NCBI RefSeq assembly: GCF_013359755.1
Contig: NZ_JABMCJ010000064.1
Coordinates: 1-64,000, forward strand
Source of the DNA: Tardiphaga robiniae
Lineage (GTDB): Bacteria; Pseudomonadota; Alphaproteobacteria; Rhizobiales; Xanthobacteraceae
Direction: 5' to 3'
DNA length: 64,000 nucleotides
Below, one piece after another: positions 18,632-30,906 of the stretch (position 1 is the first letter of the stretch; every line of letters starts with the position of its first letter). The position numbers were made by a program, and so were the translations under genes. Under the pieces are notes generated by a model, which made no database searches, was not told the origin of the DNA, and saw only the letters and a program-made list of their open reading frames with translations.

Positions 18632-19195
18632 TTGCTCGACGTCAGCAAGAATGCGGTTGGTTTCAACCTGCGCCAGCTACGCACCACCAAGGGACTGACG
18701 CTGGATCAGCTCGCCACCCAGAGCGAGTTGACGCGCGGCTATATCTCCCTCGTCGAGCGCGGTCTGAAAACGCCGTCGGTCAATGCGCTGCTGCGCCTCG
18801 CCGCGGCGCTCGATGTCAACGTCACCTATCTGTTCGACCCCAACCCGACGCCCGCCCCGCGCTACACGCTGTTCCGGCAGGATGAACAGCAAACGCCCAT
18901 GCAGGACGACGGCGTCGATCTGCTGGCGCTGGCTGCGGGACGCACACGCAAGATGATGGAGCCGTTCCTGATCCGGCCGCCGCTGAAATTCGCGCCGCGC
19001 GCGTCGCATGCGGGCGAGGAATTCCTGTTCGTCATATCAGGCAAGATGGCGATCAAGATCGAGGACGAAGAGATCGTCCTGAAGAAAGGCGACTGCCTGT
19101 ACTTTTCCGGCGAGACGCCGCACTGGGTGCGCAGCATCGGCAAACCCAAGGCCGACGTGCTGCTCGTGGTATCGGCGGCATCGCCCGAGCGGTAG
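18632..19195 (+). CDS. XRE-family regulator with C-terminal cupin domain
   Basis: A 187-residue transcription factor. An N-terminal HTH (about 10-65; LTLDQLATQSELTRGYISLVERG) is followed by a cupin sensor domain (about 105-185; HAGEEFLFVISGKM, then GDCLYFSGETPHWVRS). This architecture usually controls adjacent amino-acid, polyamine or amine-compound catabolic genes by binding a small molecule in the cupin. Translation starts at a TTG with GGAG upstream. It is divergent from the ridA-MFS-MOSC-reductase cluster and probably regulates it. Confidence 0.9.
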   Translation: MLDVSKNAVGFNLRQLRTTKGLTLDQLATQSELTRGYISLVERGLKTPSVNALLRLAAALDVNVTYLFDPNPTPAPRYTLFRQDEQQTPMQDDGVDLLALAAGRTRKMMEPFLIRPPLKFAPRASHAGEEFLFVISGKMAIKIEDEEIVLKKGDCLYFSGETPHWVRSIGKPKADVLLVVSAASPER

Positions 19196-19218: not shown

Positions 19219-19270
19219 GAGGTCATTCGCAAAAACAAAGACGCCGGCCTGATCACTCAGGCCGGCGCTC
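19219..19270 (-). terminator. Terminator of the first binding-protein gene
   Basis: An 11-bp perfect stem (19242-19252 with 19257-19267, loop TCAC) lies just downstream of the first solute-binding protein gene. On the minus strand it is followed by the T-rich run TCTTTGTTTTTG. The same block, nearly identical, recurs at 21241-21291 after the second copy. Confidence 0.8.
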
Positions 19271-19304
19271 TCTTATTCAAACCTGCCCGCCGCAGCGGCG
19301 TCGG

Positions 19305-20930
19305 TTATTCCGTCTTGTCGATGTTCCAGAACACCGGAGTGGCGGCGCCCGGCAGCACGCCGGTCAGCGACTTCCGCCATATGCTGGGGATCCGGTATTC
19401 GCCAAGCGGCAGATACGCGACCTGCTCGAGCGCACGGGCCTGGACTTCCGCAGCGGCAGCCTTTTGTTCCGCAGGCGTCGCTGCGCGCGCATACTTGTCG
19501 CGCAGTTCTTCGATCTTGGCGTCCTCGAACCATCCGAACCAGCCGCCATTCTTGCCGCGGCCCGACGTCGAGACGTTGGAAACCGGGTTAAGAATATCAG
19601 CAGCGACCCAATTGGTGAAGAACATGTTCCAACCGCCCTCCTTGACGGGCTTCTGGCTGGCGCGGCGCGTCACCACGGTCTGCCAGTCGGTGGCTTGCAC
19701 TTCGACCTTGAAGCCGGCATCGCGCAGAAGCTGCGCTGCAACGATCGGCTGCGCCTTCAGCGACGACACATCGGTGGGCGCCATGATGACCACGGGCGTG
19801 CCATCATAACCGGATTCGGCCAGCGCCTTCTTGGCTTCCGCCATGCCGCTGCCCTTGACCATGGTTTCCGAACCGACGTCGGTATCATTCGGCGTGCCGC
19901 AGCCGAACATGGCACCGCAGATCTTCATGTAGTCGGGATTACCGACCAGCGCATCGAGCACCGGCTTCTGGTTCATCGCGAGGAATGCCGCGCGGCGAAC
20001 CTTGACGTTGTCGAAGGGAGGCAACAGGAAGTTCATACGGCCCAGCGTCTGGTAACCGAGCTCGTTCAGAACCTCGATCTTGAGGTCCTTGTCCTTGACG
20101 AGAATCGGCAGCAGGTCGTAGGGACCGTTCTCCATGAAATCGATGTCGCCGGACTGCAGTGCGTTCACCGCCGTCTGCGCATCGGGCATCGTGACCCATT
20201 CGACGCGGTCGACCTTGACGACCTTGCCACCGGCCGCCCAGCTCGCAGGCTCGGAGCGCGGCACGTAGTCCTTGTTCTTCTCATAGACCGCCTTCACGCC
20301 CGGCTGGAATTCAGCCTGCACGAACTTGAACGGACCCGAACCGATCTGCTCTGGAATGGCCTTGCCGGCGGGCGTCTCGGCGAGACGCTTCGGCATCATG
20401 AACGGCACCAGCGACGATGGCTTGGCAATCGAGTCGAGCACGAGGCCGTAGGGCTCTTTGAGCGTCAGCACGATGGTCTTGGCGTCTGGCGCCTCGATGC
20501 TCTTGGTGAAGTCCATGAGCTTCTGGCCCATGCCGTCGTTACGACCCCAGCGTTGCAGCGATGCGGCGCAATCTTCCGCGGTCACCGGCTTGCCGTCGTG
20601 CCACTTCAGGCCATCGCGTAGCGTGAAGGTGTAGACCATCTTGTCATCGGAGACTTTGTACTCCGCCATCTGCGGCTGGACTTTGAAGTTTGCGTCCATC
20701 GCCAGCAACGTGTCGTAAACCATGTAACCGTGATCGCGCACGATATAGGCCGTGGTGATGCCCGGATCGAGCACGCGCAGATCCGAGTGCATCACTGCGG
20801 TGATGGTCTTGCCGGCAGCATGCGCGGGCGACGCCAGCACCGGCAGCGCGAGCGCAACGGCTACCGCCAGACCTGGTAGCGTCAATTTCGTGAAGGCCGC
20901 AGAACGCTGCCAACGTGACATGTAGGACAT
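19305..20930 (-). CDS. ABC transporter solute-binding protein, family 5 (peptide type), copy 1
   Basis: A 541-residue secreted binding protein of the DppA/OppA/NikA family. A signal peptide runs to about residue 38 (hydrophobic core, then Ala-Gly after His-Ala). The mature protein has the family pattern YTFTLRDGLKWHDGKPVTAED. The start at 20930 has AGGAGA at the right spacing. It is a close paralogue of the gene at 21327-22955, with long identical stretches, for instance around Arg-Trp-Gly-Arg-Asn-Asp-Gly-Met-Gly-Gln. Both should deliver ligand to the permeases at 24658-26497. The ligand is probably a peptide or related amide, judged from the hydrolases nearby. Confidence 0.92.
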   Translation of the reverse strand: MSYMSRWQRSAAFTKLTLPGLAVAVALALPVLASPAHAAGKTITAVMHSDLRVLDPGITTAYIVRDHGYMVYDTLLAMDANFKVQPQMAEYKVSDDKMVYTFTLRDGLKWHDGKPVTAEDCAASLQRWGRNDGMGQKLMDFTKSIEAPDAKTIVLTLKEPYGLVLDSIAKPSSLVPFMMPKRLAETPAGKAIPEQIGSGPFKFVQAEFQPGVKAVYEKNKDYVPRSEPASWAAGGKVVKVDRVEWVTMPDAQTAVNALQSGDIDFMENGPYDLLPILVKDKDLKIEVLNELGYQTLGRMNFLLPPFDNVKVRRAAFLAMNQKPVLDALVGNPDYMKICGAMFGCGTPNDTDVGSETMVKGSGMAEAKKALAESGYDGTPVVIMAPTDVSSLKAQPIVAAQLLRDAGFKVEVQATDWQTVVTRRASQKPVKEGGWNMFFTNWVAADILNPVSNVSTSGRGKNGGWFGWFEDAKIEELRDKYARAATPAEQKAAAAEVQARALEQVAYLPLGEYRIPSIWRKSLTGVLPGAATPVFWNIDKTE

Positions 20931-21240
20931 TCGATCTCTCCTGACTTGAAACTGACCATCGGTCGATGATTGCTTGTGCAACGCGATAGAAATTTAGGCG
21001 CCACCACGCGTTGGCTTTATCTTTTAGACATCAAAGACTTGCATCAAGCGTGATGCGCGTCAATCGCGTTTTCCACGCGCTACATCCACATGCTGCAGAA
21101 TGCATTCCAATGCACATCGTCAATTTGCAAAGGAGATTGCCTGCTGCTGCCAAGTCACGCACGCAGTCAACGGCATGCTCGCCCCCGCTGCACGCGACAT
21201 GGCAATCATGGGTGCGACCATCGAACGCATCGCTCGTGGA
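20931..21240. pseudogene. Duplicated upstream region with relic of the M20 peptidase gene
   Basis: This interval repeats the sequence upstream of the second binding-protein gene (22956-23179). It then jumps to a 68-bp segment (21166-21233) that matches codons 33-55 of the M20 peptidase (23374-23441). About 190 bp, including the peptidase start codon, are missing between the two matches. The relic has no start and runs directly into the terminator block of the second copy. It marks one breakpoint of a tandem duplication. Confidence 0.85.
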
Positions 21241-21295
21241 GAGGTCATTCGCAAAAACAAGAACGCCGGCCTGATCACTCAGGCCGGCGTTCTGT
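21241..21295 (-). terminator. Terminator of the second binding-protein gene
   Basis: A 13-bp stem (21262-21274 with 21279-21291, loop TCAC) is followed on the minus strand by a T-rich stretch. It is the duplicate of the terminator at 19219-19270, including the flanking GAGGTCATTCGCAAAAAC. Confidence 0.8.
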
Positions 21296-21326
21296 TACTT
21301 CACACGAACCGCGACAGCGGCGCCGG

Positions 21327-22955
21327 TTAGTCCTTCTTGTCGATGTTCCAGAACATCGGAATGGCAGCGCCCTGGGTGACGCCGGTCAGCGAGGTGCGCC
21401 AGATGCTCGGCACCTTGTATTCGCCGAGCGGGATGTAGATGACCTTGTCATAGATCTCCTTCTGGATCTCGGCGGCGAGCTTCTTCTGCTCTTCCGGCGT
21501 GGTCGCGCGTGCGTATTTGTCGCGCAGCACTTCCAGCTCGGCATCTTCGCTCCAGCCGAACCAGCCGCCATTGCTCTTGCCGCGGCCGGAGGTCGCGACA
21601 TTGCTGATGGGGTTGAGAATGTCGGCGCCGACCCAGTTGGAGAAGAACATGTTCCAGCCGCCTTCCTTGATGGGCTTCTGGCTCGGACGACGGCTGAGCA
21701 CCGTCTGCCAATCGGTGGCCTGCACTTCGACCTTGAAGCCGGCATTGCGGAGCAGTTGCGCCGCAACGATCGGCTGCGCCTTCAACGTGGTCACGTCGGT
21801 CGGCGCCATGATCACCACCGGCGTGCCGTCATAACCGGCCTCGGCGAGCAGCTTCTTGGCTTCCTCGACGCCATTGCCCTTCACAAGGCTTTCCGAACCG
21901 ACATCCGTCGCATTCGGCGTGTCGCAACCGAACACCGCGCCGCAGACCTTGTAATATTTGGGATCGCCAACCAGCGCATCCAGCACCGGCTTCTGGCTCA
22001 TTGCCAAAAACGCGGCACGGCGAATCTTCGGATTGTCGAAGGGCGGGTTAAGGAAGTTCATGCGGCCAAAGGTCTGGAAGCCCAGAGGGTTGAGCACTTC
22101 GATCTTAAGCTCCGGATCCTTCGCCAGGACCGGCAGCAGGTCGTAGGGACCATTTTCCATGAAGTCGATGTCACCCGACTGCAGCGCATTCACCGCGGTC
22201 TGTGCATCGGGCATGGTGATCCATTCGACGCGATCGACCTTCACCACCTTGCCGCCGGCCTGCCAGTCGGTCGGCTCGGAGCGCGGCTTGTACTCCTTGA
22301 ACTTCTCGTAGACGGCCTTCACGCCGGGCTGGAATTCCGACTGCACGAATTTGAACGGACCCGAGCCGACCTGCTCGGCGATCGCCTTGCCGGCGGGCGT
22401 CTCAGCCAGACGCTTCGGCATCATGAACGGCACCAGCGACGATGGCTTGGCGATCGAATCCAGAACGAGGCCGTAGGGTTCCTTCAGCGTCAGCACGATG
22501 GTCTTGGCGTCGGGCGCCTCGATGCTCTTGGTGAAGTCCATGAGCTTCTGGCCCATGCCGTCATTGCGGCCCCAGCGCTGCAGCGACGCGGCGCAGTCTT
22601 CGGCCGTGACCGGCTTGCCGTCATGCCACAGCAGGCCGTCGCGCAGGGTAAATGTATAGACAAGCTTGTCGTCGGAGACCTTCCAGTCGGCCATCTGCGG
22701 CTTGATCTCGTATTTCGAGTTCATGCCGAGCAGCGTGTCGTAAACCATGTAGCCGTGGTCGCGGACGATATAACCGGTGGTGATACCGGGATCGATCACA
22801 CGCAGATCGGAATGCATCACTGCAGTGATGGTCTTACCTGCAGCATGCGCGGGCGACGACAGCACCGGCAGCGCGAGCGCAACGGCGACCGCCAGACCGG
22901 GCAGCGCAAATTTCGTGAAGGCCGCAGAATGCTGCCAACGTGACATGTAGGACAC
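21327..22955 (-). CDS. ABC transporter solute-binding protein, family 5 (peptide type), copy 2
   Basis: A 542-residue paralogue of the preceding gene with the same signal peptide and start context. Differences cluster in the middle and C-terminal third (for example Lys-Tyr-Glu-Ile in place of Asn-Phe-Lys-Val near residue 80), as expected if ligand preference diverged after duplication. It is divergent from the M20 peptidase at 23278. Being closest to the intact promoter region, this is probably the ancestral-position copy. Confidence 0.92.
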   Translation of the reverse strand: MSYMSRWQHSAAFTKFALPGLAVAVALALPVLSSPAHAAGKTITAVMHSDLRVIDPGITTGYIVRDHGYMVYDTLLGMNSKYEIKPQMADWKVSDDKLVYTFTLRDGLLWHDGKPVTAEDCAASLQRWGRNDGMGQKLMDFTKSIEAPDAKTIVLTLKEPYGLVLDSIAKPSSLVPFMMPKRLAETPAGKAIAEQVGSGPFKFVQSEFQPGVKAVYEKFKEYKPRSEPTDWQAGGKVVKVDRVEWITMPDAQTAVNALQSGDIDFMENGPYDLLPVLAKDPELKIEVLNPLGFQTFGRMNFLNPPFDNPKIRRAAFLAMSQKPVLDALVGDPKYYKVCGAVFGCDTPNATDVGSESLVKGNGVEEAKKLLAEAGYDGTPVVIMAPTDVTTLKAQPIVAAQLLRNAGFKVEVQATDWQTVLSRRPSQKPIKEGGWNMFFSNWVGADILNPISNVATSGRGKSNGGWFGWSEDAELEVLRDKYARATTPEEQKKLAAEIQKEIYDKVIYIPLGEYKVPSIWRTSLTGVTQGAAIPMFWNIDKKD

Positions 22956-23277
22956 TCAATCTCTCCTGACTGGAATCTGACCATCGATCGATGATCGATT
23001 ATGCAACGCGATAGAATTTTAGGCGCCTTCGCGTATTGCCTTTATCATTTAGGCTTCAAGGACTTGGCATCAAGCGTGATGCGCGTCAATCGCGTTTTCC
23101 ACGCGATACATCCACACGGTGTAGAATGCATTGCAATGCACATCGTCGATTTGCAAAGGCGATTGCGCTGCTGCTAAGTCATGCGCGAACTCTCGCCGAC
23201 AAACTCTCGCAATTGTGCGCAGGCACGGAGCGCCTCGATCATCCGTGACGAAATTCTCATCCAAGAGGAATGACTTG

Positions 23278-24411
23278 ATGAACCCCGCCGAACTCCCGTT
23301 TGATCTCGAGAATATGCTGCAGGGCCTGCGCGTCTGGGTCGAATGCGAGAGCCCCACATGGGACGCGAATGCGGTCAACAGGATGCTCGACCTCGCTGCA
23401 CGCGACATGGCAATCATGGGTGCGACCATCGAGCGCATCGCGGGACGTCAGGGATTCGGCGGCTGCATCCGCGCCCGTTTTCCACATCCGAAATTCGGCG
23501 AACCCGGCATCCTGATCGCGGGCCACATGGATACCGTTCACCCGGTTGGCACCATCGAAAAGCTGAAGTGGCGCCGCGATGGCGAGCGCTGCTACGGCCC
23601 GGCGATCTGCGACATGAAGGGCGGTAATTATCTATCACTGGAAGCCATCCGCCAGCTCGCACGTATCTCCTATACGACGCCGCTACCCATCACCGTACTG
23701 TTCACGCCCGATGAGGAAGTCGGCACGCCATCGACCCGCGACATCATCGAAGCTGAAGCCGCGCGGAACAAATACGTGCTGGTGCCGGAGCCCGGTAGTG
23801 CGGGCAACGGTGTCACCACTGGCCGCTATGCGATCGCCCGCTTCAATCTCGAAACCATCGGCCGGCCCAGCCATTCGGGCGCGACGCTGTCGAACGGCCG
23901 CTCCGCGATTCGCGAAATGGCGAAGAAGATCGTGCAGATCGACGAGATGACTGGACCGGACTGCACGTTCAGCGTCGGCATCGTGCATGGCGGACAATGG
24001 GTCAACTGCGTTGCCTCGTCATGCACCGGCGAAGCGCTGAGCATGGCCAAGCGTCAGGAAGATCTCGATGCCGGCGTCCAGCGCATGCTCGCTCTCTCAG
24101 GTACCGAGAATGACGTGACCTTCAACGTCACCCGCGGCGTCACCCGCCCGGTGTGGGAACCGAACGCGGCGACCATGGCGCTGTTCGAGAAAGCCAAGGC
24201 CATCAATGGTCGCCTCGGCCTGCCCGAACTGACCCATGGCAGCAAGGGCGGCGGTTCGGATGGTAATTTTACCGGCGCGATGGGCATCCCGACCCTCGAC
24301 GGGCTCGGCGTTCATGGCGCCGATATGCACACGCTCAACGAATATATCGTCGCGCAGAGCCTTGTTGATCGTGGCCGCCTGATGGCGGGATTGCTGGCAA
24401 CCCTCGATTGA
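23278..24411 (+). CDS. M20-family metallopeptidase (glutamate carboxypeptidase-like)
   Basis: A 377-residue di-zinc peptidase. Visible ligands and catalytic residues include GHMDTVHP (His, Asp), CDMKGG (Asp), PDEEVG (catalytic Glu and ligand Glu), a Glu in VPEPGS and a late His in GADMHTLNE. The dimerisation domain has GRPSHSGATLSNGRSAI. The family cleaves C-terminal amino acids or N-acyl groups. The ATG at 23278 is preceded by AGAGGA. It is divergent from the duplicated binding proteins and upstream of the matching permeases. Part of its 5' coding region has been copied to 21166-21233. Confidence 0.9.
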   Translation: MNPAELPFDLENMLQGLRVWVECESPTWDANAVNRMLDLAARDMAIMGATIERIAGRQGFGGCIRARFPHPKFGEPGILIAGHMDTVHPVGTIEKLKWRRDGERCYGPAICDMKGGNYLSLEAIRQLARISYTTPLPITVLFTPDEEVGTPSTRDIIEAEAARNKYVLVPEPGSAGNGVTTGRYAIARFNLETIGRPSHSGATLSNGRSAIREMAKKIVQIDEMTGPDCTFSVGIVHGGQWVNCVASSCTGEALSMAKRQEDLDAGVQRMLALSGTENDVTFNVTRGVTRPVWEPNAATMALFEKAKAINGRLGLPELTHGSKGGGSDGNFTGAMGIPTLDGLGVHGADMHTLNEYIVAQSLVDRGRLMAGLLATLD

Positions 24412-24657: not shown

Positions 24658-25599
24658 ATGCTCGGATACCTCATTCGCCGGATTCTTGCGGCCATACCCG
24701 TTATGGGTGTGGTGGCCCTGTTTGTCTTCCTGCTGCTTCGGCTGACGCCCGGCGATCCTGCCGCGATCATCGCCGGCGATAACGCGACGGCCGAGCAGCT
24801 CGACCGCATCCGGACGCAGCTCGGTCTCAACGAACCGCTCTACACGCAGTTTTTCAGCTGGGTCTGGCGGCTGCTGCACGGTGACTTCGGCACCTCGCTG
24901 ATCTCCAACGTGCCTGTGCTGCAGATGGTCAACCAGCGCATCGAGCCCTCTTTGAGCATTGCATTGAGCGTGATGCTGGTTTCGATCCTTGTTGCGATCC
25001 CGCTCGGCGTCATCGCCGCATGGAAACACGGCACATGGATCGACCGTTTCGTGATGGCGCTGTCAGTGATCGGCTTCTCCGTGCCGGTGTTCGTGATCGG
25101 TTACGTGCTGGTCCAGGTGTTCGCGATCGAACTGCGCTGGTTTCCGGTGCAGGGTTTCCGCAGCATCTCGCGTGGCTTCGGGCCGTTCTTTGAGCGCATC
25201 ACGCTGCCGACCGTCGCGCTGTCCTTTGTCTATGTCGCGCTAATCGCGCGCATGACCCGCGCGGCGATGCTCGGAGTGCTCGGCGAAGACTATGTCCGCA
25301 CCGCGCGCGCCAAGGGCATCAACGAGAGCGGTGTGCTGTTCCGCCACGCGCTGCGTAACGCCGCCGTGCCGGTCATCACGGTGATCGGTACCGGCTTCGC
25401 ACTGCTGATCTCCGGCGTCGTCGTCACCGAAAGCGTGTTCAACCTGCCCGGCATCGGTCGCTTGACGGTCGACGCCGTGCTGGCGCGGGATTTTCCCGTG
25501 ATCCAGGCCATGATCCTTTTGACCTCGGGCGTTTATGTCGGGGTCAATTTGCTTATCGACCTTGCCTACGCACTGCTCGATCCCAGAATTCGTTACTAG
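24658..25599 (+). CDS. Peptide-type ABC transporter permease (DppB-like)
   Basis: A 313-residue inner-membrane permease with six hydrophobic segments. The N-terminal LIRRILAAIPV and TPGDPA are typical of the DppB/OppB subfamily, and the cytoplasmic EAA-type loop (Tyr-Val-Arg-Thr-Ala-Arg-Ala-Lys-Gly) contacts the ATPase. It pairs with the DppC-like permease 13 nt downstream and with the fused ATPase. With the two binding proteins on the opposite strand it forms a complete importer. Confidence 0.93.
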   Translation: MLGYLIRRILAAIPVMGVVALFVFLLLRLTPGDPAAIIAGDNATAEQLDRIRTQLGLNEPLYTQFFSWVWRLLHGDFGTSLISNVPVLQMVNQRIEPSLSIALSVMLVSILVAIPLGVIAAWKHGTWIDRFVMALSVIGFSVPVFVIGYVLVQVFAIELRWFPVQGFRSISRGFGPFFERITLPTVALSFVYVALIARMTRAAMLGVLGEDYVRTARAKGINESGVLFRHALRNAAVPVITVIGTGFALLISGVVVTESVFNLPGIGRLTVDAVLARDFPVIQAMILLTSGVYVGVNLLIDLAYALLDPRIRY

Positions 25600-25612
25600 G
25601 AATCTGTATCTG

Positions 25613-26493
25613 ATGGCGATCGAATCCCTTCCCAACCCGGCCCTCCCCTCCCGCAGCGGTCCGTCGCTCGGCTTTCTCACCGCGACGCCGATTATCGCCT
25701 TGGCGACGATTTGCCTGACGCTGGTGATCCTGTCGGCGATTTTCGCACCGTGGCTGACGTCGCACGATCCGCAATTGCTGGCACCCGCCTTGCGGCTGAA
25801 GCCGGCCAGTTCGGAATATCTGCTCGGCACCGACGCTTACGGCCGCGACGTGCTGGCGCGCATCCTCTATGGCGGTCGCATCTCGCTCCTGATCGGCCTC
25901 GGCGCCGCCGTCACCAGTATTGTCATCGGCCTCTTCATCGGCCTGTTCTCGGGCTTTTTCAAATTGGCCGACGCTGTGATGATGCGTGTCATGGACGGCC
26001 TGATGGCAATGCCCGGCGTGCTGCTGGCCATCGCCGTCGTGTCGCTGTCAGGCGCCACCCTGACGACGGTGCTGATTGCGATCACTATTCCGGAAATCCC
26101 CCGTGTCGCGCGACTGGTGCGTTCCGTGGTGCTGTCGGCACGTGAGGAGCCCTATGTGGAGGCGGCGATCTCGCTCGGCTCCAGCATGCCGAAGATCATG
26201 TTGAAGCATCTGATGCCCAACACGGTGGCGCCGCTGATCGTCCAGGGCACCTTCATCGCCGCATCCGCCATTCTCACCGAGGCGATCCTGTCGTTCCTCG
26301 GCGCCGGCATCAGCCCGGAAACCCCCACCTGGGGGAATATCATGGCCGAGGGTCGCGCCTTCTTCCAGGTCAAGCCATCGCTGATCTTCTGGCCGGGATT
26401 ACTGCTCTCGATTGCCATCCTCTCCGTCAATCTGATCGGCGACGCTGCCCGCGATGCGCTCGATCCCCGCATGAAACAGCGTGAGGCCGGCAA

Positions 26494-26497
<4 letters not shown>
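25613..26497 (+). CDS. Peptide-type ABC transporter permease (DppC-like)
   Basis: A 294-residue second permease subunit. The signature YLLGTDAYGRDVLARILYGGR at the periplasmic side and the EAA loop (Glu-Pro-Tyr-Val-Glu-Ala-Ala) mark the DppC/OppC type. The ATG at 25613 with AGGAATC upstream was chosen over an upstream start inside the preceding gene. Its stop overlaps the GTG start of the ATPase gene. Confidence 0.93.
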
Positions 26498-28179
<1,682 letters not shown>

Positions 28180-28209: not shown

Positions 28210-29733
28210 ATGACCCGTATCGCTGTCGGCGGCTTTCTGCACGAGACGAACACGTTTGCGCCGACCAAGGCGACCTATGAGGCCTTTGTACATGGCGGCG
28301 GCTGGCCGTCGATGACGCATGGCGCCGACGTCCTCAAGGTGATGCGTGGCATCAATGTCGGCCTCGCCGGCTTTATCGAGGAAGCCGAGACACGCGGCTG
28401 GGAGCTGATCCCGACCATCGCCTGCGGCGCAAGCCCTTCGGCCCATGTCACCAGGGACGCGTTCGAGCGCATCGTCGGCGAGATGATTGACGGCATCAGG
28501 GCAGCGCTGCCCCTCGATGCGATCTATCTCGATCTGCATGGCGCCATGGTCACCGAACATCTCGACGACGGCGAAGGCGAAATCGCGCGGCGCGTGCGCG
28601 AGGTGATCGGGCCGGACATTCCGTTCGTGGTCAGCCTCGACCTGCATGGCAACATCTCGCCGGAGACGGTCGAATACACCGACGCGCTGATCGCCTATCG
28701 CACCTATCCCCATGTGGACATGGCCGACACCGGCCGCGCCTGTGCACGCCACATGGACTTGCTGCTCGCCGGCAACCGCTTCGCCAAGGCATTCCGGCAA
28801 TTGCCGTTCCTGATTCCGATCAGCTGGCAATGCACCAATGACGAGCCGACCAAGAGCATCTATCTGAAGCTGGCCGCGCTGGAACATGACCAGGTGCCGA
28901 CGCTGTCGTTCTGCCCGGGCTTTCCTGCCGCCGATTTCCCGCATTGCTGCCCGAGCGTGTTCGCCTATGGCGTGACGCAGGCTGATGCCGACGCTGCAGC
29001 GGACACCATCGTCAAGCTGGTGATGGGCCACGAGGATGATTTCAACGGCAAGATCTACAGGCCGGACGAAGGCGTGCTGCATGCCATGGAGCTGGCGAAG
29101 ACCCTCACCAAGCCGGTCGTTATCGCCGACACCCAGGACAATCCCGGCGCCGGCGGCGACAGCGACACCACCGGCATGCTGCGCGCGCTGGTGAAGAACA
29201 AGGCGATCAAGGCCGCCCATGGCGTGATCTACGATCCCGCTGCAGCGAAGGCTGCCCATCAGGCCGGCGAAGGCGCTACGGTCAAACTCTCCATCGGCGG
29301 CAAGTCGGGCATCCCCGGCGATGCGCCTTACGAGAACACGTTCGTGGTCGAGAAACTGTCGGACGGCAAGTTCGTCGCCAACGGCCCCTATTATGGCGAT
29401 CGCGACATGGATATGGGCCTCTCGGCCTGTCTGCGTATCGACGACGTCCGCGTCGTCATCTCCTCGCACAAGGCCCAGCTCGCCGACCAGTCGATGTATC
29501 GCTATGTCGGTATCGAGCCGACTGAGCAGAACATTCTCGTCAACAAGAGCTCGGTGCATTTCCGCGCCGACTTCGAGCCGATCGCCGGCAAGCTGCTGAT
29601 CTGCGCCGCGCCCGGCGCGATGCCGGCGGATACGTCCGTGCTGCCCTGGAAGCATTTGCGCCCGGGCATCCGGCTGAAGCCGAATGGCGAACCATTTACG
29701 CCCCAGACCTCATCACCTGCCCTCGTGCCGTGA
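28210..29733 (+). CDS. M81-family metallopeptidase (MlrC-like)
   Basis: A 507-residue protein of the M81 family. The N-terminal GGFLHETNTF and the motifs DLHGAMV and LDLHGN supply probable zinc ligands (His and Asp). The founding member MlrC takes part in degrading the cyclic peptide microcystin after ring opening. Relatives are common beside dipeptide-type ABC importers, as here. I infer hydrolysis of an imported peptide or amide, in the cytoplasm since no signal peptide is visible. Confidence 0.9.
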   Translation: MTRIAVGGFLHETNTFAPTKATYEAFVHGGGWPSMTHGADVLKVMRGINVGLAGFIEEAETRGWELIPTIACGASPSAHVTRDAFERIVGEMIDGIRAALPLDAIYLDLHGAMVTEHLDDGEGEIARRVREVIGPDIPFVVSLDLHGNISPETVEYTDALIAYRTYPHVDMADTGRACARHMDLLLAGNRFAKAFRQLPFLIPISWQCTNDEPTKSIYLKLAALEHDQVPTLSFCPGFPAADFPHCCPSVFAYGVTQADADAAADTIVKLVMGHEDDFNGKIYRPDEGVLHAMELAKTLTKPVVIADTQDNPGAGGDSDTTGMLRALVKNKAIKAAHGVIYDPAAAKAAHQAGEGATVKLSIGGKSGIPGDAPYENTFVVEKLSDGKFVANGPYYGDRDMDMGLSACLRIDDVRVVISSHKAQLADQSMYRYVGIEPTEQNILVNKSSVHFRADFEPIAGKLLICAAPGAMPADTSVLPWKHLRPGIRLKPNGEPFTPQTSSPALVP

Positions 29734-29745
29734 ACGGATAGACCC

Positions 29746-30906
29746 ATGCCCACACTCGAACGTATCGACGCCTTCGCCGACGAACTCACCGCCATCCGCC
29801 GCGACCTGCACGCGCATCCGGAAATCGGCTTCGAGGAAGTCCGCACCTCCGGCATCGTCGCCGACAAGCTGACCTCCTGGGGTGTCGAAGTGCATCGCGG
29901 CTTAGGGGGTACCGGCGTCGTCGGCGTGCTGAAGGGCAAAGGCTCGGGCACCAAGCGCATCGGCCTGCGCGCCGACATGGACGCGCTGCCGATGGAAGAA
30001 AACACCAATCTCGCCTGGCGCTCCACCATTCCGGGCCGTTTTCACGGCTGCGGTCATGATGGCCACACCACCATGCTGCTCGGCACCGCTCGCTATCTCG
30101 CCGAGACCCGCAATTTCGACGGCACCGTGCATTTCATCTTCCAGCCCGCCGAAGAAGGCCTCGGCGGTGCGCGCGCGATGATCAAGGACGGTCTGTTCAA
30201 GCAGTTTCCCTGCGATGAAATCTATGGTCTGCACAATGCACCGGACATGAATCACGGCGAAGTCGGCATCTTCCCGGGCCCTGCAATGGCCGCCGCTGAT
30301 TTCTTCGACATCACCATCCGGGGCTACGGCGCGCATGGCGCGATGCCGGAGCGCTCCAAGGATCCTGTCGTGATCGCGATGTCGCTCGGTCAGGCGATGC
30401 AGTCGATCGTCAGCCGCAACGTCAATCCGTTCGAATCCGCGGTGCTGTCGATCACCCAGATCCATTCCGGCTCGGCCTATAACGTCATCCCGGATGATGC
30501 GAAGCTCTGCGGCACCGTGCGCTGTTTCTCCGAGAAGGTCCGGATGCAGATCCGCGAGCGGATGCATGCGCTCGCTGCCGGCATGGCGACGGCATTCGAT
30601 TGCGAGATCAAGGTCGATATCCGCGACGGCTTCAGCGTGCTGGTCAATCAGGAAGAGCATTCCAAGGCCGTCGAGGACGTTGCACGCACGATCGTCGGCG
30701 ACGCCAATGTGATCACCCGCGCGAAGCCGAAAATGGGCTCCGAAGATTTCGCCGACATGCTGCATGCCGTGCCCGGCGCCTATTTCTGGGTCGGCCAAGA
30801 AGGCTCGGTGCCGGTGCACAATCCCGGCTATTATCTCGACGATAAGATCCTGCCCATCGGCGCCAGCATGTTCGCCCGCATCGTCGAAACCCGGCTGCCG
30901 GCGTAA
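29746..30906 (+). CDS. M20-family amidohydrolase (hippurate hydrolase / aminoacylase type)
   Basis: A 386-residue metal-dependent amidohydrolase. Motifs seen include DLHAHPEIGFEE, RADMDALPM, the metal-binding GCGHDGHTTMLLG, PAEEGLGGA and the late GSEDFADML. Such enzymes release amino acids from N-acyl-amino acids or peptides. It follows the M81 gene by 12 nt in the importer operon and would act as a final deacylation step. Confidence 0.93.
   Translation: MPTLERIDAFADELTAIRRDLHAHPEIGFEEVRTSGIVADKLTSWGVEVHRGLGGTGVVGVLKGKGSGTKRIGLRADMDALPMEENTNLAWRSTIPGRFHGCGHDGHTTMLLGTARYLAETRNFDGTVHFIFQPAEEGLGGARAMIKDGLFKQFPCDEIYGLHNAPDMNHGEVGIFPGPAMAAADFFDITIRGYGAHGAMPERSKDPVVIAMSLGQAMQSIVSRNVNPFESAVLSITQIHSGSAYNVIPDDAKLCGTVRCFSEKVRMQIRERMHALAAGMATAFDCEIKVDIRDGFSVLVNQEEHSKAVEDVARTIVGDANVITRAKPKMGSEDFADMLHAVPGAYFWVGQEGSVPVHNPGYYLDDKILPIGASMFARIVETRLPA

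Follow-up and report, generated by a model that had tools for sequence, protein, structure and literature searches.

A peptidase gene remnant at a tandem-duplication junction between two binding-protein genes of Tardiphaga robiniae

Background

Tandem paralogous binding proteins that work with a single ABC importer are found in the argT-hisJ system with HisQMP and in livJ/livK with LivHMGF. The Tardiphaga locus described here resembles these systems in that paralogous binding-protein (SBP) genes are located near one permease/ATPase set, with diverging copies and a single importer. It differs from them in that its SBPs belong to family 5 (class C), that the importer is of the Opp/Dpp type and the SBP genes are divergent from the peptidase and permease genes, and that the locus carries a junction scar and SBPs with exchanged mature parts; sharing of the importer is presumed here. 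Among other Nitrobacteraceae, arrays with extra SBPs on the same side of the same cluster are present in the BTAi1 group (three copies) and in part of the B. japonicum group (two copies); however, these arrays fall on separate branches of the SBP tree, i.e., have separate origins, and have no peptidase fragment between the copies. Published work on CuaD (PMC10384115) describes an extra SBP of a cellobiose system that was found by experiment to function in sensing and not in uptake; CuaD and the second Tardiphaga SBP both accompany a transport system, whereas the regulator next to the Tardiphaga array is an XRE-cupin protein. The same whole-protein fold is shared with 8vdx, a family 5 SBP from Bordetella bronchiseptica, followed by AapF, MoaA and DppA (Z 34-39), but identity is 37% at best (8vdx) and approx. 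20% to the proteins with known ligands, so that a ligand can not be transferred.

One way for a bacterial importer to gain a broader range is the duplication of its binding proteins, and the junctions of such duplications are seldom recognisable. A literature search on tandem SBP duplication found nothing on the Tardiphaga locus. The type of event is well known and ordinary, and the locus is a clear new instance of it, i.e., a genuine and well-preserved tandem-duplication scar that is older and more mosaic than a first reading of the sequence (the initial annotation) had suggested.

Results and Discussion

Two direct repeat blocks are separated by a peptidase gene remnant

The features of the locus in the window, i.e., the whole 64,000-nucleotide stretch of T. 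robiniae DNA that was analyzed, are listed in Table 1. Blastn self-alignment placed positions 19219-21163 and 21241-23187 in one match (1953 columns, 82.4% identity, E = 0), and blocks 19219-21162 and 21241-23187 thus represent direct repeats with 82% identity. Each block contains a terminator hairpin, a minus-strand gene for a 542-residue SBP and approx. 230 bp of upstream sequence. The sharing of terminator, binding-protein gene and upstream region proposed in the initial annotation was borne out by the self-alignment and a terminator scan, and the self-alignment check proposed with it found similarity that is not confined to the coding regions, as it extends to both terminators, to GAGGTCATTCGCAAAAACA preceding them and to the upstream region of approx. 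230 bp. That both SBPs carry copies of one promoter, also proposed there, would be consistent with the shared upstream sequence; a scan, which does not cover promoters of other types, found no sigma-70 consensus upstream of the SBP genes.

Table 1 Features of the SBP locus (positions in the window)
Feature	Position	Strand	Basis or remark
XRE-family HTH + cupin regulator gene	18632..19195	+	Pfam HTH_3, Cupin_2; left neighbour of the array
Left edge of block 1: flank GAGGTCATTCGC and SBP1 terminator hairpin (12-bp stem, T tract)	19219..19271	-	Terminator scan
SBP1, distal copy, family 5 (class C), mature part "type 1"	19305..20933	-	PF00496 (E 2.6e-71), trees, residue polarity
SBP1 upstream region, copy of the SBP2 upstream region	20934..21162	-	93% identity over 21041-21140
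M20 peptidase remnant, codons 32-55, MAIMG	21163..21233	+	Alignment, shuffles; in 4 of 392 genomes
Filler (approx. 7 nt), shared flank, SBP2 terminator hairpin (15-bp stem, T tract)	21234..21293	-	Terminator scan
SBP2, proximal copy, family 5 (class C), more derived	21327..22955	-	PF00496 (E 1.5e-70), fold Z 39.4 to 8vdx
Divergent intergenic region SBP2/M20 peptidase	22956..23277	.	23187-23277 within the stretch absent from block 1
M20 metallo-hydrolase gene, source of the remnant (23371-23441)	23278..24411	+	NF005678; first 93 nt absent from block 1
Opp/Dpp-type permeases (24658-25599, 25616-26497) and fused ATPase (26494-28179)	24658..28179	+	NCBIfam; gene order conserved across the family
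M81 (MlrC-like) metallopeptidase and M20 amidohydrolase	28210..30906	+	Pfam PF07364/PF07171, PF01546; downstream cluster genes

While block 2 continues into the divergent M20 peptidase gene (start at 23278), block 1 ends instead in a remnant of this gene. Positions 21163-21233 match 23371-23441 over 71 columns (91.5% identity, E about 1e-24; blastn self-alignment), i.e., codons 32-55 (nt 94-164 of the gene) on the same strand as the peptidase gene. An ungapped comparison gave 65 identities in 71 positions, and the best of 200 dinucleotide shuffles over the window gave 42/71; a chance match was thus ruled out. Block 1 has no counterpart of 23187-23370 (approx. 184 bp), a region that includes the peptidase start, and between the remnant and the SBP2 terminator lie a few filler bases (approx. 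21234-21240), then the shared flank GAGGTCATTCGC. In these respects the initial annotation was right in outline and is adjusted in extent: it described a 68-bp copy of codons 33-55 at 21166-21233 and a loss of about 190 bp including the peptidase start, and the few unassigned bases before the next terminator are an addition to it.

The terminator-side flank GAGGTCATTCGC is common to both copies in genomes of clade X (see below) and is present in no other genome. Microhomology at the deletion of approx. 184 bp amounts to at most 3-4 bases, too few to be informative. No mobile or repeated element was found at the junction, as a query with the junction matched nothing in its own genome except the peptidase gene and the two upstream copies, and no known RNA family was found there (all matches were far below the gathering score). 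An assembly artefact was ruled out because three other independently assembled species show the same arrangement and scar, for a total of four independent assemblies.

Predicted functions of the encoded proteins

Both SBPs matched PF00496 above the gathering score (241 and 239 bits vs. a cut-off of 32.4), and the AlphaFold2 model of SBP2 (pLDDT 82) shows a class C periplasmic-binding fold. This model matched 8vdx with a Z of 39.4 over 496 residues (37% identity) and DppA (1dpp) with a Z of 34.2; behind 8vdx, the fold matches comprise binders of peptides, opines and nickel chelates. Neither SBP reached the NCBIfam cut-offs for the DppA, GsiB and NikA equivalogs (GsiB, 119-121 bits at best, cut-off 594; NikA, approx. 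100 bits, cut-off 393; DppA, 44-52 bits, cut-off 1005), and as both are below every NCBIfam equivalog cut-off, a ligand can not be assigned. The M20 metallo-hydrolase, on the other hand, matched NF005678 (PRK07473) over its full length with 727 bits (equivalog cut-off 386); its nearest solved relative is carboxypeptidase G2, which is distant. Only one permease set is present in the cluster, and other SBPs of the family are encoded elsewhere in the genome; the two binding proteins presumably serve one Opp/Dpp-type importer. The likeliest role of the cluster would be to take up small peptide-like compounds and hydrolyse them, the two SBPs widening the range or dose of one importer. The dN/dS ratio was 0.155 between the two copies and 0.02-0.09 among near orthologues; these low values indicate that both SBP genes are under purifying selection.

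Distribution of the scar and of tandem SBP genes among relatives

In a genus sample of 18 Tardiphaga species genomes (one genome per species), housekeeping genes gave clades X (G017, G007, G003, G015 and G000, which contains the window), Y (G005, G001, G002, G004 and G014) and Z (G016, G011, G006, G008, G012 and G013); G009 was too incomplete for the housekeeping tree and is Y-like at the SBP locus. A search of 392 family genomes found the scar junction in four, all of them X species, and nowhere else. In X genomes other than G003, the gene order is XRE regulator - SBP1 - remnant - SBP2 - M20 - permeases - ATPase - M81 - M20; the XRE regulator adjoins the array in G000, G007, G015 and G017, and the single SBP gene in G003. 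Y genomes carry a tandem SBP pair with spacers that differ from those of X, while Z genomes and G003 carry a single SBP gene divergent from the M20 gene. Bradyrhizobium and Rhodopseudomonas have the same cluster, nearly always with one SBP gene divergent from the M20 gene. In other tandem SBP spacers examined (Y Tardiphaga and Bradyrhizobium), neither blastn nor blastx found peptidase sequence.

Comparison with one-copy relatives, as called for in the initial annotation, thus yielded the presumed unduplicated order, which is that of most Bradyrhizobium, of Z and of G003; a partial copy of the neighbouring gene, i.e., the 71-bp fragment of the peptidase 5' end, lies between the blocks and bounds the second copy in the same orientation. 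A duplication private to this lineage, on the other hand, did not hold, as the sister clade Y also carries tandem pairs.

The housekeeping genes place G003 within X. In this genome (L148, reverse strand, about 5.7-12.3 kb), a segment of approx. 6.6 kb, which begins at the SBP 3' end and extends to the ATPase gene, is only 70-90% identical to the sister species, while the flanks around it are 86-99% identical; the SBP pair was lost here when a diverged allele took the place of this segment.

Two further observations concern the SBP loci of other Tardiphaga genomes. The spacers between tandem SBP genes in Y (L142:7864-8917, L139:7949-9540 and L144:8402-8948) contain arrays of palindromic REP-like repeats (CTCATCCTGAGGAGC...TCTCGAAGGATGG...CTCATGGTTCGAGACG...CTCCTCACCATGAGGG), among which G001 and G002 carry a small GIY-YIG nuclease ORF (PF01541, E 1e-17 for G001). 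In G008 (L151:6136-7744), the SBP gene of the locus is split over two frames by an apparent frameshift, and a diverged SBP gene (64%) adjoins an M20 gene at another site of the genome (L152).

Age of the duplication

We compared trees and silent divergence for SBP1 and SBP2 of X (X1 and X2) and for the distal and proximal copies of Y (Yd and Yp). In a tree of the 5' region (promoter and signal peptide, approx. 260 columns), the proximal copies of X and Y formed one clade (95/91) and the Yd copies a separate clade (100/99), X1 was placed outside both, and all X/Y copies were set apart from the single-copy genomes; this topology is as expected if the duplication preceded the split of X and Y. 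Consistent with this, dS was greater between Yd and Yp (0.53) than between X2 and Yp (0.41), which indicates that the duplication occurred no later than the separation of X and Y. For the mature part (body), dS between X1 and X2 was 0.79, as compared to approx. 0.2 within X orthologues. We thus infer that the duplication is old and would predate the split of the two clades; as the scar is undetectable in Y, a single shared duplication is deduced for that clade and not seen.

The remnant itself carries information on age. It reads MAIMG, while 9 of 10 X/Y peptidases read MQ(I/V)MG. The A form is prevalent among peptidases of Z, G003 and Bradyrhizobium and was therefore taken as ancestral, which suggests that the remnant was derived from the peptidase before the change to the MQ form; its allele is closest to those of single-copy genomes. 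The remnant is hence a peptidase copy, as initially annotated, but of an older allele and not of today's neighbouring gene. A surviving junction with an allele older than the living gene helps to date a duplication.

In the window, the peptidase itself, alone among X/Y species, reads MAIMG and is identical to the remnant over 38 bases (23395-23432); codon 45 is GCA as in the remnant, and nt 114 and 120 also match. This tract may represent a short gene conversion from the remnant or import from a G003-like allele. Conversion from the remnant is only one of these two possibilities, because the G003 peptidase carries almost the same tract and further G003-like sites occur in G000.

Mosaic history of the two copies

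The promoter regions and signal peptides of SBP1 and SBP2 are approx. 90% identical, and the silent difference between the copies rises from 0.15 over the first 60 codons to mostly 0.3-0.7 in the rest of the gene. The synonymous divergence along the blocks, which the initial annotation had suggested comparing, is low at first and higher after, and does not act as a simple clock since the duplication. In the body tree, the mature part of X1, the distal copy of G002 (G002_1) and the single SBPs of Z formed one group (96/98), while the 5' region of G002_1, unlike its body, is of the Y type (100/99). A third body type unites G016 with G003 (100/100), though the 5' region of G016 groups with G013 (95/90). 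The switch points between partners lie close to codons 42-60 on one side and at about the stop codon on the other. As the body tree places SBP1 with single-copy genomes, a shared duplication needs an exchange step; in the body tree alone, SBP1 and SBP2 of X/Y as one clade is weakly rejected (p-AU 0.035). The dS of X1-Z (0.52) is lower than that of the M20 genes of X and Z (0.73), which suits exchange of the SBP1 body after the lineages split. These data make an exchange of the SBP1 mature part between lineages, in one direction or the other, probable. X SBP2 is nested near the Y copies with G002_2 as sister, which indicates some exchange between X and Y as well. At the 62 fixed differences between SBP1 and SBP2 of X, polarity assigned 32 derived residues to SBP2 and 16 to SBP1, which thus retains the larger share of ancestral residues.

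The locus thus appears to combine a fixed promoter and signal peptide with a mature binding domain that passes between species, and it is a good teaching case for the caution that coding divergence of tandem copies need not reflect the age of their duplication.

Proposed history and alternative explanations

The sequence itself shows the junction and the mosaic pattern, while the order of events would follow from the trees. We consider it probable that a tandem duplication in the X/Y ancestor, with its junction in the peptidase gene, was followed by the deletion of approx. 184 bp, exchange of the SBP1 body and divergence of SBP2. In this sequence of events, an ancestor with one SBP gene divergent from the M20 peptidase gene would have duplicated the terminator, the SBP gene, its upstream region and the first approx. 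164 nt of the peptidase gene, with the truncated peptidase 5' end as junction. Approx. 184 bp with the start codon would then have been deleted from the copied part, and the 71-bp remnant would have been kept in X; it is not detectable in Y. The promoters and signal peptides of the two copies would have stayed alike, while the distal copy swapped its mature part with single-copy lineages and the proximal copy gathered more changes. Today, two secreted SBPs with somewhat different specificity may supply one importer with small peptide-like ligands, and the M20 and M81 enzymes would process the imported cargo. Of the history in the initial annotation (duplication, deletion and divergence), the tandem duplication, its breakpoint inside the peptidase gene and the later loss are supported; the coding divergence is not a simple clock.

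The MAIMG allele of the remnant and its closeness to single-copy genomes, together with the grouping of the SBP1 body, would also be explained if a foreign segment with SBP2 and an intact peptidase gene had entered a resident locus with SBP1 and a MAIMG peptidase, of which the remnant would be the stump. Replacement at this locus is known in the genus (the approx. 6.6 kb of G003). We nevertheless regard such an insertion as unlikely, as both X blocks share a terminator-side flank that is absent elsewhere and have near-identical upstream and signal regions, both as predicted by duplication, and as the M20 tree unites the peptidases of X and Y like the species tree. The position of SBP1 with the Z singles in the body tree, the rejection of the alternative topology and the similarity of body dS between X1 and X2 (0.79) to that of M20 between X and Z (0.73) would instead fit a duplication older than the whole genus, with loss of SBP2 in the single-copy Tardiphaga. 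This is quite unlikely, since the 5'-region tree sets Z apart from all X/Y copies, the X1-Z dS of 0.52 is below the expectation for vertical descent, and Z shows no trace of a second copy or of the scar. The plain reading of the blocks, a recent duplication private to X followed by fast divergence, agrees with the confinement of scar and shared flank to X and with upstream regions that are mutually closest between the two X copies; it is, however, very improbable given the body dS of 0.79 between the copies vs. approx. 0.2 within X orthologues, the orthologues of the 5' regions of both copies in Y, and the ancestral MAIMG of the remnant.

Conservation of the remnant and of the intergenic region

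Among the four X species, only 3 of 75 sites were variable in the remnant (21163-21233 and equivalents in L136-L138), as compared to 29%, 27% and 48% of fourfold sites in SBP1, SBP2 and the peptidase gene (Fisher p 6e-7, 3e-6 and 2e-13, respectively) and to 28% of sites in a comparable intergenic stretch beside the peptidase gene (p 4e-5). In the intact peptidase gene, the corresponding stretch was variable at 13 of 71 positions. It is tempting to hypothesize that the remnant was recruited as a functional non-coding element, i.e., a regulatory part or a short RNA, but we consider this unlikely; local exchange of the segment among species would explain the low variation equally well and is more likely, in a comparison of constraint with exchange that rests on four sequences. 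A short RNA that starts from the copied peptidase promoter and is ended by the SBP2 hairpin is likewise an improbable form of recruitment.

In the SBP2/M20 intergenic region, 98 bp (23083-23180 and counterparts in L136-L138) showed 1 variable site in 98 among the four species. These 98 bp include a perfect 14-bp palindrome, TGCATTGCAATGCA, and the palindrome region is a possible candidate operator.
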